The position numbers and the translations under genes are program-made. From a virus, in IMG/VR virus record IMGVR_UViG_3300026184_000139, positions 1 through 27,273 of that record: a stretch of 27,273 nucleotides of DNA. One strand, given 5' to 3'. Positions 1,819 to 27,249 of this stretch are shown here, piece by piece. The notes beneath the pieces are model-generated. The model had not been told where the DNA came from and ran no database searches. It was given only the letters and a program-made list of their open reading frames with translations. Within the stretch, counting starts at the first letter, position 1. Each line of letters begins with the position of its first letter.

Positions 1819-2175
1819 GGGGGCGAACGGCATCGACTAATATAGTAATGATATAATAATAAGTAGTGTTTGATAATACACTTTAAAATTATCATTTTTT
1901 AAATGGCAATGAAAACTTTGCTCTTGCAGCGTAAGCTGGCTGGGTTGGTAACTGACCTCGAAACAGAATAGTTACTTAATTTTTGCACTGCCCATTTGGG
2001 TGGATGCGATGGTAGTTTCACACTTCCGTAATTTGTGGAAAGGGGTGTTATCAATTCTACTCTGATGTGAATTGAACATTATTTGTTAGTATTAATGTCA
2101 AATAAACTAACAAAAACTTATACAATTATTGTATTATTATATATTAACACGCGGGTTCGAATCCCGCCGCTTCCA
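1819..2175 (+). ncRNA. ssrA: Transfer-messenger RNA (tmRNA, one-piece), tag GNENFALAA
   Basis: The element has the full layout of a tmRNA. The acceptor stem pairs 1819-1825 (GGGGGCG) with 2168-2174 (CGCTTCC). The T arm is 2151-2167 (GCGGG, TTCGAAT, CCCGC). Helix P2 pairs 1851-1861 with 2132-2142 over 11 bases. Pseudoknot PK1 has stem 1865-1869/1878-1882, and its loop 1871-1877 (TGATAAT) pairs perfectly with 1888-1894. The tag frame follows: GGC at 1905, then N-E-N-F-A-L-A-A and TAA at 1932-1934, so the peptide added after the charged Ala is GNENFALAA. The ALAA end is the classic ClpXP degron. CCA is not encoded. No SmpB gene is visible, so host SmpB would be needed. The role is rescue of stalled ribosomes, possibly on phage mRNA cut or depleted during infection. 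Confidence 0.95.
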
Positions 2176-2180
2176 CAATA

Positions 2181-2210
2181 ACCTACTATCGAAAGATGGT
2201 AGGTTTTTTT
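2181..2210 (+). terminator. Rho-independent terminator of the tmRNA
   Basis: A 10-bp stem, ACCTACTATC (2181-2190) with GATGGTAGGT (2195-2204), closes a GAAA tetraloop with one G-U pair and runs into seven T residues. It lies 5 bases after the tmRNA discriminator base and ends that transcript. Confidence 0.9.
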
Positions 2211-2668: not shown

Positions 2669-4972
2669 ATGAAACTTCATTCTTCTTTTTGGTTAGATGA
2701 AAAAAACTTCAATAAGCTTGGTAAGCGAGACGAATTAGATCCTATGGAATTGGTTAAATACCAACGTTCTATAGGTAAATTCGTTAAAATACTTACAAAA
2801 GAACATATTCCTGTTACATTTAAAACACGTGATGGGGTGGATGGAAATTCTTATACAGATGGTAAATCGGTTGTTATTGGTTCTAACATCACTCAAAAGA
2901 ATTTTGATTCTGTTGTAGGTTTGGCACTTCACGAAGGTTCTCATATTCTATTATCTGATTTTTCTATCTTTCCTAATTTTAAAAAAGAAATTAGGGAAAT
3001 GTTGGAAAATAGGTTTGGATATGATTATGAAGAATTGACAGGATGGCAAGAAGAATTAGAAAATAATATTCGTATCTTCAAATCCCTTCTTAATTATGTT
3101 GAAGATAGGAGAATTGATTATTATGTTCAAAAGAATTCTCCTGGTTATAAAGGATATTATGAAGCAATGTATGATAGATATTTCAAAGATCATATTATTG
3201 ATAAAGCAATTGCTTCTGATAAATTTACTGATGTAACACTTTCAAGTTATATGTATCGTATTATCAATTTCATTAATGATAATACACGGTTTGATGCGTT
3301 GCCTGATTTGGAAGAAATTTACAATCTTATTTTTGATAATGTTTCTTCTCTGAAATCTATTCAAGATTCAATGGATATTACTTTTAAAATCTATCGAATC
3401 ATTAAAGAAAATGTTAATGAAGCAGAAGAACAAAAAAAGCAAGAAGAAGGTGAAGAAGAATCTGATGAAAATGGAGAAAAAGAAAATGGTTCAGAAGGTT
3501 CAAATTCAACCACAGGCGAGTCCTCTGATGAAGATGGTGTAAATACTTCAATGGATGGAGAAGGGGATTCTATGGAAGAACCTGACAGTTCTAATGATGA
3601 ATCAGAAGATGAAGAATCTGGCGATGATGAATCAGATGAAGATAAAGGTGCTTCTTCTTCAAACGGTTCTGAAACAGATGAAACGGAATCTAGCAATGAA
3701 TCGGATGATGATGAATCTGAAAATGATTCTGATTCTGATGAATCAGAAGATGAAGATTCCGAAAGTGAGTCTGACGAATCAGAAAGTGAATCTGATGATG
3801 AATCTGATAATGAAGATGGTGAATCTGATAATAGTTCTGACGAAGATTCTGAAAGTGAATCTGATGATGAATCAAATGAATCTGATGAAGATAATGAAGA
3901 TGTTGAACGTCCTGAATTAACAGATAGACAGGAAAAAGAACTTTCTAAGAGATTAGAAAAGCAAGAAAAATTCTTAGATGGTGAAATTTATAAACGTACT
4001 GTAGATAAAAAAACTAAAGAATTAGTTGATATTATTTCTGATATAGATTTTGATCAAAAAGAAGTTGAATTCGGTGAATTTAATACAAAAGTTGATGTTT
4101 CGGTTATAAGAGGTTTTAATGATAAAACAATCCAATTAGTTAGAGCAGTTGAGCGACAAAAAGAACGTATTGAAGCAGGTTATTCTGATGGACTGACTGA
4201 TACTGTAAATGAAGGTATTAGATTAGGTCGTCGGTTAGGCAAAAAACTTCAAATTCGAAATCGTGAACGAACTACTACTTACAATCGTAAAAAGAAAGGT
4301 AAGTTGGATAAACGAAGAATTCACGCATTAGGATTCAGAGATGAAAATGTATTTAATCAATACGTAACGGAAAAACATGAAGATGCTTTCATTCATCTAT
4401 CTATTGATGCAAGTGCCTCAATGGACGGAAAAAAATTCAAAAATGCAATAAAATCAGCTGTTGCAATTGCACAAATGGCTGATATGACAAATATTGATGT
4501 TGAAATCTCTTTGAGATACATTACTAAGATTGCTAATAAAGAACAGCCTATTTTGTGGATTGTTTACAATTCTAAAAAAGATTCTATTGATACTATCAAA
4601 AAGAATTTTAAATATCTCGCAGCCACAGAATGTACTCCCGAAGGATTGTGCTTTAATACCATTTTAAAACAGTTACCTAAAGGTTCTGATGTACTTAAAA
4701 CCTATTTCATTAATTATTCAGATGGAATGCCTTACTGGTGGGGTACAGGATATAAAGGAAATGCTGCTATTGAACATACTAAAAAACAAGTCAAAGAAAT
4801 TGAAAAATTAGGTTATACTATTCTTTCATTTTTCATTTCTGATTCCGAATATGATAATAAAGATAAGAAATCTGATTTTCAAAAAATGTATGGTAGGAAT
4901 TCTACTTTTATTAATCCTACTGAATTAACTCAATTGGTTAAAGAATTGAAATCAATGTTTTTAAAAAAGTAA
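2669..4972 (+). CDS. CobT-like metallopeptidase/VWA-domain protein
   Basis: A 767-residue protein in three parts. The N-terminal part has an HExxH zinc site (H88-E-G-S-H92 in LALHEGSHILL) and a downstream VEDRRID segment (E145) that could give the third ligand, as in CobT/VWA-like putative metallopeptidases. Residues about 252-411 are an extreme Ser/Asp/Glu-rich linker. The C-terminal part is a von Willebrand A domain with a complete MIDAS: D580-A-S582-A-S584, T656 in CTPEG, and D685 in YSDGMPY. Proteins of this type usually work with a MoxR/CobS-family AAA+ ATPase as a chelatase-like or remodelling pair; none is in this window. Some large phages carry such pairs, with unknown role. A true cobalt-chelatase role is unlikely without other cobalamin genes. 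A promoter at 2592 drives it. Confidence 0.85.
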   Translation: MKLHSSFWLDEKNFNKLGKRDELDPMELVKYQRSIGKFVKILTKEHIPVTFKTRDGVDGNSYTDGKSVVIGSNITQKNFDSVVGLALHEGSHILLSDFSIFPNFKKEIREMLENRFGYDYEELTGWQEELENNIRIFKSLLNYVEDRRIDYYVQKNSPGYKGYYEAMYDRYFKDHIIDKAIASDKFTDVTLSSYMYRIINFINDNTRFDALPDLEEIYNLIFDNVSSLKSIQDSMDITFKIYRIIKENVNEAEEQKKQEEGEEESDENGEKENGSEGSNSTTGESSDEDGVNTSMDGEGDSMEEPDSSNDESEDEESGDDESDEDKGASSSNGSETDETESSNESDDDESENDSDSDESEDEDSESESDESESESDDESDNEDGESDNSSDEDSESESDDESNESDEDNEDVERPELTDRQEKELSKRLEKQEKFLDGEIYKRTVDKKTKELVDIISDIDFDQKEVEFGEFNTKVDVSVIRGFNDKTIQLVRAVERQKERIEAGYSDGLTDTVNEGIRLGRRLGKKLQIRNRERTTTYNRKKKGKLDKRRIHALGFRDENVFNQYVTEKHEDAFIHLSIDASASMDGKKFKNAIKSAVAIAQMADMTNIDVEISLRYITKIANKEQPILWIVYNSKKDSIDTIKKNFKYLAATECTPEGLCFNTILKQLPKGSDVLKTYFINYSDGMPYWWGTGYKGNAAIEHTKKQVKEIEKLGYTILSFFISDSEYDNKDKKSDFQKMYGRNSTFINPTELTQLVKELKSMFLKK

Positions 4973-9555: not shown

Positions 9556-9819
9556 ATGGAATATATATTAATTTTATCTATAATACTAAATATTATATTA
9601 TTTTATGTATGTTATAATTTATATAATAAAAACATATCATATGAAGATATTATATTATCAATTCAAAAAGAAATAGCTAATACAGTCAATTTAATGAGAC
9701 AAATTGACTATTCTGGTGCTTTTGAAGCTGATGATGAAGTTGGAAGTACTTTTAAAAGTTTATTAAATATTTTAAATAAACTAGAGGGTATTATTAATGT
9801 CAAAGAAGAAACGGAATAA
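9556..9819 (+). CDS. Small N-terminally anchored membrane protein (87 aa)
   Basis: An 87-residue protein. Residues about 3-22 are a hydrophobic helix (YILILSIILNIILFYVCYNL). The soluble part carries a distinctive stretch, MRQIDYSGAFEADDEVGSTF, then an amphipathic helix. I recall similar IDxxGxFExDDEVG small proteins near late-gene regulators of marine T4-like phages, without known function. It overlaps the sigma-factor gene by 23 bases, so the two are translationally coupled. The GAGAGAGAA leader (9545-9553) just before ATG is shared with the gene at 6298. T4 has a co-activator gene (gp33) beside gene 55, but this membrane-anchored protein does not look like it. Confidence 0.75.
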   Translation: MEYILILSIILNIILFYVCYNLYNKNISYEDIILSIQKEIANTVNLMRQIDYSGAFEADDEVGSTFKSLLNILNKLEGIINVKEETE

Positions 9820-10507
9820 AAAAGGTTATTATTTTACTAAAGAAACTGAAAAGGCTATTATTGAATATAACAATACAAATAATCAAGCTAAGAAAAATAA
9901 AATATATAGAGAAGAACTTGAATGGCCATTAAGTAAATTAGTTGAAAATATATTTAATACATTTAAATTTGAATATTTTTTGGATGATCCTCAAGATGTT
10001 CAAGCAGAAGTTTTAGCACATCTCATAGAAAAATTATATATGTACGATGAAGGTAAAGGAAAAGCCTTTTCATATTTTAGCATTATTGCTAAAAATTATC
10101 TTATTTTAAATAATAATAAAAATTATAAAATGATGAAAATGTATCAGAATATAGATGATACAGATGAAGTCTTTCAGTTGGAAGATCCAAAAGAAAATGA
10201 AAGAATTCATAATCATATAGAAGAATTTGTTGAATTAATGTATCATTTCTGGGATTATAAAATTCCTAGATTATTTAACAAGAAAAGAGATAAAAAAATT
10301 GCATATGCTATTATGGAACTTTTATATAATCACATAGATAGCATAGATGTTTTTAGAAAGAAAACTATTTATTTATACATAAGAGAAATGACTGGGTATG
10401 GTGGGCAATATATAACACCTGTTTTGAATAAAATGAGGCCCATTCAGAGAAAAATTTATGATGATTTTTTGGAAACAGGTAAAATTAAAGAAATAAGGTA
10501 TATATAA
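9797..10507 (+). CDS. T4 gp55-like late-transcription sigma factor
   Basis: A 236-residue protein with a sigma70 region 2-like core: DDPQDVQAEVLAHLIEKLY, then GKGKAFSYFSIIAKNYLIL, the same arrangement as the core-polymerase-binding and -10-recognition helices of T4 gp55-type factors. Region 4 is not evident, as in gp55, which relies on gp33 and the sliding clamp. The basic start (MSKKKRNKKGYYF) and the C-terminal helices (YLYIREMTGYGG, VLNKMRPIQRKIYDD) complete it. The start ATG has a GAGGG ribosome-binding-like site about 8 bases upstream inside the previous gene. The stop TAA overlaps the next ATG by one base. It would direct the host polymerase to late promoters, including those of the structural genes that follow. 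Confidence 0.8.
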   Translation: MSKKKRNKKGYYFTKETEKAIIEYNNTNNQAKKNKIYREELEWPLSKLVENIFNTFKFEYFLDDPQDVQAEVLAHLIEKLYMYDEGKGKAFSYFSIIAKNYLILNNNKNYKMMKMYQNIDDTDEVFQLEDPKENERIHNHIEEFVELMYHFWDYKIPRLFNKKRDKKIAYAIMELLYNHIDSIDVFRKKTIYLYIREMTGYGGQYITPVLNKMRPIQRKIYDDFLETGKIKEIRYI

Positions 10508-13301: not shown

Positions 13302-13679
13302 ATGAAACCAATAGGTATTGATATACCCATAAAAAGAGGAAAACAAGGTTTTTTTAAACAAACTTTTACTACAAATAATGCTATTAAGGCGAATATAAAA
13401 AATTTGCTTTTAACTAACAAGGGGGAACGTCCTTTAAATCCTTCTTTTGGGAATGGATTAAATCAAATGGTATTTGAAAATGATGATACTATAACAAAAG
13501 AGTTAATACGTGATAAAATAACAAATACAATTAATAAGTATATCCCATCTGTTCAAATAAATGATATAACATTTGATGATAATTTAAATGATAATTCAAT
13601 AAAATTTAGTATTACTTTTTCTCTAAAACAATATCCAAATTTCATTGACAGAATTCAGATGCAAGTAAATACAGGGTAA
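13302..13679 (+). CDS. gp25-like baseplate wedge protein
   Basis: A 125-residue protein, the usual length of the T4 gp25 family. The hallmark is LLLTNKGERPLNPSFGNGL (about residues 33-51), matching the GERPMRPDFGxGL signature of these proteins, followed by a helix with ELIRDKITNTINKY. A strand pair (INDITFDD, IKFSITFSLK) lies near the end. In T4, gp25 is a sheath-like part of the wedge that links baseplate and sheath. It is directly followed by the gp6-like gene, as in many myoviruses, which strengthens both calls. Confidence 0.9.
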   Translation: MKPIGIDIPIKRGKQGFFKQTFTTNNAIKANIKNLLLTNKGERPLNPSFGNGLNQMVFENDDTITKELIRDKITNTINKYIPSVQINDITFDDNLNDNSIKFSITFSLKQYPNFIDRIQMQVNTG

Positions 13680-13685
13680 TTATAG

Positions 13686-15539
13686 ATGGCTATAAATTCA
13701 ATAAATAAAGATTTTTCAAAAAAACGAAAAGATGTAAATCTATTAGCTAAAGATTTTTCTTCATATAAGCAAAAATTAATAGATTTTTCAAAAACTTATT
13801 TCCCAAATACTTATAATGATTTTACAGAAGGTTCTACTGGGAATATGTTTATAGAATTAGTATCTTATGTTGGTGATGTTCTTTCATATAACATAGATTA
13901 TAATTTTAAAGAATCATTGTTAACTAATGCTTCTGAGGAAAAAAATATTATAAAATTAGCTCAATCATTGGGTTATAAAGTTCCGCTCAGTTCAGGTGCT
14001 GTTACATCATTAAAAATCTATCAGTTACTTCCTGATAATGGAAGTGGTTCTCCTGATTGGAAATATGCATTGAAAGTAAATGATAATATGAAAATTGGTT
14101 CTAATCAAAATTCTGATGTTATCTTTAGAACACTGGAACCTATAGATTTTTCTGATATGAAAGATTTATCAAATGTTGATGATTACTTAGAACTCTATCA
14201 AGAAAATAATGGAACTCCTCAATTTTGGTTAGTTGAATATTACAGGGACATTCCAGTAATAGCTGGGCAAGAAAAGGAATTAACTGTTAATGTTGGCGAT
14301 CCTGAAAAGTTTTATACAGTTGAATTACCTGATGATGATGTAATTGATATTATATCTGTAGTTGATTCGGATGGTAACAAATATTATGAAGTTGATTATT
14401 TAGCTCAAGATAGTATAATATCTCAAATAAAAGTTGATAGAAATGAAGAACCATTTTACCAACCAAAAATATTAAAAGTTCCAAGAAGATTTATTACTAA
14501 AGTAAATAAAAATTTAAAAAAGGTAATTCAATTCGGCGCAGGAACTACAGTTGATATAGATGAAGAAACAATATCTTCTATATTTCAAGCTGATAACAAA
14601 GTTGGAAGTACGGAATTAGCTATAGATCCTTCATCTTTTTCTACATCAAAAACTTATGGAAAAGCTCCAGCTAATACTACATTAACAATAAAATATACTG
14701 TTGGCGGCGGTATTGAATCAAATGTAGGTCAAAATGATTTAACAGATATAAATGAAATTGTATATGCCAACGATACTTCTACATTATCTGATGTAGAAAA
14801 AAATACATTAAATCAGATAAAAACAACTTTAACTGTTACCAATGAATCAAAAGCAAGTGGAGGTAGAGGTAAATTAAGTCCTAATGAAATTAGAGAAAAT
14901 GCTTTGGCATTTTTTAATGCTCAAAAGAGATGTGTGACTGCTAGAGACTATGAATCAAGAATATTCTCTATGCCTTCACGATTTGGAAATATATCAAAAG
15001 TATATGTGGAGAAAAGTAGTGCCCATAAAAATAATACTACAAATTCTCCAACAATAAATTGTTATTTATTATCATACGATAATAATAATAAGTTAACAAA
15101 TTTAAATTCTCAAACAAAAAAGAATGTAAGTATATTTCTGAATGAATTTAGAATGTTGACTGATGGAGTTAATTTACTGGATGGGTACGTAGTTAATATA
15201 GGAGTTGACTTTGAAATATCTGTTTACTCGTCATACAATAAGAGTGAAGTTTTATTAAAAGCTATAGAAACTGTTAAAAATTTCTTTGATATTGATATTA
15301 TGAATTTTAATCAACCTATTTATATTAACGATTTAGAATTACAGCTTGGAAATGTTGATGGAGTTCGAACTGTAAACAGCGTTAAACTGATTAATAAAAC
15401 ATTGGATGATGGTGATTATTCATCAACATACTATCCAATACAATCAGCAACAAGAAATAAAATAGTATATCCATCTGTAGAACCTTCTGTTTTCGAAATT
15501 AAATATCCCAATAGTGATATAAAAGGTAGAGTTAGATAA
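13686..15539 (+). CDS. gp6/Baseplate_J-like baseplate wedge protein
   Basis: A 617-residue protein close to the length of T4 gp6 (660). The N-terminal signature DFTEGSTGNMFIELVSYVGD (about 43-62) with the following helix (LLTNASEEKNIIKLAQSLGY) is typical for gp6/Baseplate_J proteins. So is the later ALAFFNAQKRCVTARDYES (about 412-430) with MPSRFGNISKVYVE. gp6 forms the dimeric ring that holds the six wedges together and relays the conformational change that starts sheath contraction. It starts 6 bases after the gp25-like gene and overlaps the next start (TAATG). Confidence 0.9.
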   Translation: MAINSINKDFSKKRKDVNLLAKDFSSYKQKLIDFSKTYFPNTYNDFTEGSTGNMFIELVSYVGDVLSYNIDYNFKESLLTNASEEKNIIKLAQSLGYKVPLSSGAVTSLKIYQLLPDNGSGSPDWKYALKVNDNMKIGSNQNSDVIFRTLEPIDFSDMKDLSNVDDYLELYQENNGTPQFWLVEYYRDIPVIAGQEKELTVNVGDPEKFYTVELPDDDVIDIISVVDSDGNKYYEVDYLAQDSIISQIKVDRNEEPFYQPKILKVPRRFITKVNKNLKKVIQFGAGTTVDIDEETISSIFQADNKVGSTELAIDPSSFSTSKTYGKAPANTTLTIKYTVGGGIESNVGQNDLTDINEIVYANDTSTLSDVEKNTLNQIKTTLTVTNESKASGGRGKLSPNEIRENALAFFNAQKRCVTARDYESRIFSMPSRFGNISKVYVEKSSAHKNNTTNSPTINCYLLSYDNNNKLTNLNSQTKKNVSIFLNEFRMLTDGVNLLDGYVVNIGVDFEISVYSSYNKSEVLLKAIETVKNFFDIDIMNFNQPIYINDLELQLGNVDGVRTVNSVKLINKTLDDGDYSSTYYPIQSATRNKIVYPSVEPSVFEIKYPNSDIKGRVR

Positions 15540-26766: not shown

Positions 26767-27249
26767 ATGAGTAATTGGAAATATAAAGGAAAAGTTATTA
26801 AAGAATTAGATGATATGCCAGATGAAGTATTTGGGTTCATTTATAGAGTCACACATAAACCAAGCGGAAAAAAATATTTAGGTAGAAAACAATTAATATA
26901 TGAACGTAAACGAAAGATTGGTAAACGAGAAACAAAACGTTTAAAAGAAGAAAAAAAAGAAGCTGGTGAAGATCATTGGTGGATAGTTCCTAAATATAAA
27001 TATGTTAAAAAGGAATCGGATTGGAAATCTTATTATGGTTCTGCCGAAGATATTCAAAAATTATTAGAAAAAGATGGAGAAGATGCCTTTGATAGAGAAA
27101 TTTTGGATTTTGCTTATCACAAAAAACAATTGAATTATAAAGAAGTTAAATTGTTGTTTGAGCAAAACGTTTTGGAAGATGATTTATATATAAACTCAAA
27201 TATTCAAGGTAAATTTTATCCAAAAGATGCATTAGACCAAATTGAGTAA
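26767..27249 (+). CDS. GIY-YIG nuclease-like protein (160 aa)
   Basis: A 160-residue protein. The GIY-YIG core reads GFIYRVTHKPSGKKYLGRKQ (residues 23-42), with Y26 and Y37-L-G39 as the two motifs and R40 close by. A basic insert (RKRKIGKRETKRLKEEKKE) follows, then DWKSYYGSAEDIQKLL, AFDREILDFAY and LNYKEVKLLFEQNVL, where E126 could be the metal-binding Glu. This matches the Seg/I-TevI-type nuclease layout, without an obvious separate DNA-binding domain beyond the basic insert. It lies at the end of the structural operon, on the same strand and only 3 bases after the previous gene. It may be a homing enzyme or a domesticated nuclease. Confidence 0.75.
   Translation: MSNWKYKGKVIKELDDMPDEVFGFIYRVTHKPSGKKYLGRKQLIYERKRKIGKRETKRLKEEKKEAGEDHWWIVPKYKYVKKESDWKSYYGSAEDIQKLLEKDGEDAFDREILDFAYHKKQLNYKEVKLLFEQNVLEDDLYINSNIQGKFYPKDALDQIE

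Follow-up and report, generated by a model that had tools for sequence, protein, structure and literature searches.

In trans-translation, stalled ribosomes are freed by alanine-charged tmRNA in association with SmpB, and the incomplete protein is marked for degradation by a tag; the G3-U70 pair is the identity element for alanine, and a tag ending in LAA is a ClpXP-type degron, whose recognition by ClpXP has been established in E. coli. One-piece tmRNAs of phages, to which the RNA described here is likened by way of the literature and not by sequence, are known from mycobacteriophages Bxz1, Cali and Wildcat and from Bacillus phage G (PMC4131195). A permuted two-piece tmRNA is encoded by OM43 phage Melnitz (PMC9004378), and the sole viral precedent that we found for a tmRNA consisting of the TLD only is mycobacteriophage DS6A (PMC4131195, PMC11915505). 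Huge phages may carry tmRNA as well as SmpB (PMC7162821). Altogether, tmRNA was reported for 402 of 18,146 phage genomes, i.e. about 2.3%, and for its role there are suggestions only (PMC9004378).

Here, we analyzed a stretch of 27,273 bp (IMG/VR record IMGVR_UViG_3300026184_000139; hereafter the window), which is a fragment of a larger T4-like phage and carries a real, complete, phage-encoded one-piece tmRNA. Phage tmRNAs as such are already known; the addition made by this analysis is a slot for tRNA or tmRNA genes that recurs in a group of phages.

A complete one-piece tmRNA gene

ARAGORN reported a single RNA gene for the window, a one-piece tmRNA with the tag GNENFALAA. The Rfam scan yielded a match to RF00023 at positions 1819-2178, which covers the full model (1-374) with 73 bits (gathering score 47, E 8e-27), while no other Rfam family reached its own cut-off in the window. 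Hence, both tools agree on one complete gene. A preceding sequence-only reading had described acceptor stem, T arm, P2, PK1, tag and terminator between 1819 and 2175, and this is borne out by ARAGORN, the RF00023 match and a check of the helices. Its coordinates and tag were right: position 2175 is the discriminator base, and the gene called by ARAGORN extends to 2176, giving a length of 358 nt. The gene ends with ...CCACAA, and the 3' CCA is not encoded. Features are compiled in the table.

Features of the window and contents of the corresponding slot in relatives
Feature	Position	Strand	Details
One-piece tmRNA (ssrA) gene	1819..2176	+	ARAGORN, RF00023, fold z
Acceptor stem, 5' strand	1819..1825	+	GGGGGCG, pairs with CGCUUCC (2168-2174), 7/7, includes G3-U70
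P2, 5' side	1838..1864	+	Pairs with 2116-2146; 25 standard pairs in three blocks
PK1	1865..1894	+	S1 AGUGU/ACACU 5/5; S2 UGAUAAU/AUUAUCA 7/7; checked letter by letter
Tag frame GNENFALAA + UAA	1905..1934	+	Resume codon GGC; ARAGORN coding part 87-116
PK2 (plausible)	1942..1976	+	GGGUU/GACCU with G-U pairs; GGUAACU/AGUUACU; inferred from complementarity
PK3 (plausible)	2042..2075	+	S1 GGGGU/ACUCU weak, two G-U pairs; S2 UCAAUUC/GAAUUGA; inferred from complementarity
PK4 (plausible)	2076..2114	+	S1 ACAUUA/UAAUGU 6/6 by reading letters; S2 UUUGUUAG/CUAACAAA 8/8
T arm	2151..2167	+	GCGGG-UUCGAAU-CCCGC; stem 5/5; matches RF00023
Intrinsic terminator	2180..2205	+	11 bp stem, then T run; 1 found, 0.2 expected by chance
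VWA-domain protein	2669..4972	+	CobT_C-like below Pfam cut-off; phrog_1576; marks syntenic slot in relatives
Conserved phage gene, synteny anchor	9797..10507	+	Homologues across phage group; function unproven
Slot content, L043			Met/Glu/Asp tRNAs
Slot content, L044			Glu tRNA
Slot content, L239			Glu/Asp/Pro/Lys tRNAs

The RNA belongs to RF00023 by its model score, by a TLD with G3-U70 and T arm, by PK1 together with an in-frame tag and stop codon, and by the LAA end. Its order is 5'TLD-tag-3'TLD with the 5' strand of the acceptor first, which is not that of the permuted two-piece type (RF04321/RF01849). With 358 nt and a tag, it also differs from the DS6A-type TLD-only RNA, which lacks a tag frame and comprises about 110 nt. 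The strand encoding the tmRNA folds with a z-score of -5.1, none of 100 shuffles being equally stable, and the core helices are intact in a phage genome with a GC content of 27%. Start sites of pseudoknot-like elements number 13, compared to a mean of 2.7 in shuffled sequences, and as many were reached in one out of 200 shuffles.

The stop codon of a small gene lies 13 nt upstream of the tmRNA start. No promoter for the tmRNA could be singled out in the window; a T4-type late promoter motif (TATAAATA at 1801-1808) was considered and rejected, as its frequency in the window shows no enrichment (12 occurrences, 12.3 expected). Transcription would probably occur by read-through from the small upstream gene or from a nearby promoter and end at the terminator, and the 5' end would be trimmed by host RNase P and the CCA added by the host.

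Tag, host and origin of the RNA

The sequence-only reading had regarded the tag as possibly new and its initial glycine as a pointer to the host group. The former did not hold, as GNENFALAA turned up in 12 viral contigs besides the window. Of these, 11 matched the model of permuted tmRNA above cut-off, and ARAGORN confirmed the tag frame in seven. The letters of the tag were not mentioned in the literature that we searched. As for the host, the exact tag is present in none of 395 sampled Bacteroidota genomes. Because the identical tag occurs in permuted tmRNAs of viral contigs, it names no host by itself, and an assignment from the tag alone was rejected. In two contigs with a permuted GNENFALAA tmRNA, a manA RNA motif scored just above cut-off (L048:3533-3740 and L052:6965-7172).

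Nonetheless, Bacteroidota are the best-fitting host, as suggested by the G-starting ALAA tag, the UAAAY-GGC context at the start of the tag and the absent CCA. Confidence in this assignment is only moderate, since the exact tag was found in 0/395 Bacteroidota genomes but in 12 viral contigs. The cellular Bacteroidota tags that we collected are mostly GENNYALAA and nearly all end with ALAA, like the tag in the window, a tally which is biased by a collecting pattern that required a G-starting tag of the YALAA/FALAA type. The CCA is encoded in 9 of 105 collected tmRNA genes, those of Bacteroidota being mostly devoid of it, like the gene in the window.

A close homologue of the RNA was not found, and it is far from every tmRNA collected. 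Comparison with 102 Bacteroidota tmRNAs returned short matches only, the best with 23.6 bits over about 60 nt. Likewise, scoring of profiles against three sets of tmRNAs produced short local matches and no clear parent lineage. As this applies to whichever set was used, it is unlikely that the gene was recently captured from a host among those sampled. A nucleotide search of annotated phages detected solely two weak matches to Streptomyces phages over the tag region. These data bear on the idea that the gene was recently taken up from a host or is a prophage remnant without a role in infection. Cellular ssrA is indeed a common integration site, and host-like GENNYALAA tmRNAs are present in some viral contigs. 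However, the short matches to Bacteroidota tmRNAs, the location ahead of baseplate and tail genes of the T4-like type, the gene's own terminator, the lack of an integrase among the proteins scanned and the occupation of the slot by tRNAs in relatives make this idea very improbable.

The tRNA/tmRNA slot in a phage group

T4-like baseplate wedge genes are located at 13302-13679 and 13686-15539 in the window. Among annotated sequences, the wedge protein of 617 aa has its best relatives in Microcystis phage Mel-JY01 (41%), the uncultured phage LR756508.1 (37%) and Flavobacterium phages immuto (35%). Three relatives are closer: two of them share about 65% identity in the wedge protein, and the third shares 62.5% in the protein encoded at 9797-10507. 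In these three, the slot preceding the VWA gene homologue is occupied by one to four tRNA genes, in the window by the tmRNA, and therefore the tmRNA is not essential to this type of phage. A query with the VWA protein against the viral contigs gave no matches. Between tmRNA and VWA gene, an 82-aa ORF (2255-2503, +) is present, which is rich in His, Ser and Asp and contains 27-bp repeats.

Two endonuclease genes are also encoded in the window, an HNH-type enzyme on the opposite strand, which precedes the tmRNA by about 500 bp (478-1314, -; phrog_1271, E 2.7e-9) and a SegE-like GIY-YIG enzyme (26767-27249, +; PF19835, E 3.3e-28). They would fit a scenario in which tRNA and tmRNA genes are kept as landmarks for integration or recombination, i.e. 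because homing endonucleases encoded nearby target them, and not for a role in translation. Homing would not, however, preserve tag frame, pseudoknots and G3-U70 in so divergent an RNA, and we give this scenario very little credence.

To look beyond the closest relatives, we collected 80 loci with homologues of the anchor gene, and 47 records, partial ones searched over their whole length, were scanned for tmRNA. Scores above cut-off were obtained in 19 of the 47, a figure which may include near-duplicate records and should not be read as the number of independent events. All 19 tmRNAs are on the strand of the anchor and 18 of them are located 4.9-16.5 kb upstream of it, the distance in the window being 7.6 kb. 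Tags of tmRNAs in this phage group (L319-L337, L267, L274) are long and differ from that in the window, e.g. AEDNVISYDFSYDDVVALAA and ANNVIAYDFTPEGVEAEYAVA. The earlier statement that phage tmRNAs are uncommon holds overall, at 402 in 18,146 genomes (PMC9004378), but in this related group 19 of 47 records have one. The anchor gene itself was considered as a late sigma factor, which was rejected: one weak match to Sigma70_r2 (E 0.044) emerged among seven homologues, and PDB provided nothing useful.

As a tentative proposal, for which we see somewhat less than an even chance, the slot might represent an old and fast-changing translation-support locus of a widespread T4-like group, at which tRNAs, tmRNAs with phage tags and possibly minimal tmRNAs interchange at one position. 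If so, trans-translation would be routinely under phage control in this group and not an oddity.

Proposed function and comparison with known tmRNAs

The absence of SmpB from the window, as noted in the initial reading, was confirmed by a search with PF01668; it is established for this 27 kb fragment and not for the whole phage. Another 19 phage records, among which are the deposited genomes of Mel-JY01, immuto and LR756508.1 (484 kb), likewise yielded no SmpB. The same search found SmpB in a Maribacter genome and in 10 of 14 named control genomes. It is plausible that the phage tmRNA makes use of host SmpB.

We consider it likely, in view of the complete gene with its structure, tag and terminator and of its setting in related phages, that the phage tmRNA is functional, being charged with alanine and rescuing stalled ribosomes together with host SmpB during infection. 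Following alanylation via G3-U70 and loading with host SmpB, the RNA would enter ribosomes that have stalled on broken mRNA of the host or the phage and add GNENFALAA. The ribosome would be released and the tagged product degraded by ClpXP-type proteases of the host. The phage may keep the tmRNA as part of a cassette of the tRNA type that supports translation. Counting against this explanation are the D-loop (GGCAUCGAC), which is unlike the usual GGUUUCGAC/GGAUUCGAC, the lack of a promoter that could be singled out, the lack of a close homologue of the RNA and the tRNAs that fill the slot in the three closest relatives.

Tagless TLD-only genes of about 105-125 nt were also detected above the RF00023 cut-off, in LR756508.1 (414804-414915, corresponding to L238:5805-5916) as well as in L341, L342, L344, L345, L346, L348, L350 and L351. 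Several TLD-only tmRNA-like genes are within tRNA arrays, and three further contigs (L353, L354, L356), which lie outside the set scanned with RF00023, look alike by sequence. One contig with a TLD-only tmRNA additionally contains a match to the Pistol ribozyme (L342:10932-11017; 39.5 bits, cut-off 34.5).

Such genes show that phages do encode tagless tmRNAs, and inhibition of tmRNA by TLD-only RNA has been demonstrated (PMC4131195, PMC11915505). By analogy to DS6A, the RNA in the window might mainly titrate host SmpB, EF-Tu or AlaRS and thereby dampen or redirect host trans-translation, and SmpB is not co-encoded in the records searched. Yet, the RNA retains tag frame, stop codon, PK1 and PK4, which are needless for a decoy, and we regard a titrating role as unlikely compared with ribosome rescue. 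The role of phage tmRNA is not established; with 19 of 47 records carrying it at a conserved position, exchangeable with tRNAs, the group offers a natural comparison set for ribosome recycling versus interference with host rescue.

Compared with known tmRNAs, the RNA shares with RF00023 ssrA of the Bacteroidota type the full-length match, G3-U70, P2, the PK1-PK4 layout, the G-starting ALAA tag, U-A-A-A-Y preceding the GGC resume codon and the usual lack of an encoded CCA. In contrast, Bacteroidota-type ssrA mostly comprises 390-400 nt with the tag GENNYALAA, the D-loop GGCAUCGAC distinguishes the window RNA, and there is little sequence identity. One-piece phage tmRNAs in viral contigs L196-L222 are likewise complete and likewise lack SmpB in the contigs searched, but their phages are of a type unrelated to the window phage and their tags differ (e.g. 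ANKQFALAA, GTTNYALAA). The permuted viral tmRNAs of L047-L058 are phage-encoded and specify the identical tag, whereas all except L051 match the permuted models RF04321/RF01849 and the gene in the window is not permuted. Similar in setting is huge phage LR756508.1, which is related in gp6 (37%), has no SmpB and carries a tmRNA that, like the one in the window, precedes gp6 by about 12 kb. This tmRNA (LR756508.1:92434-92880, L237:6435-6881) differs, however, by its length of 447 nt and by an apparent 36-codon tag ending with KPAAV instead of LAA, and ARAGORN calls a different short tag for it; moreover, the genome has a second, TLD-only gene. As the vicinity of the 447 nt tmRNA yielded no homologue of the VWA gene, strict orthology with the tmRNA in the window is not claimed.
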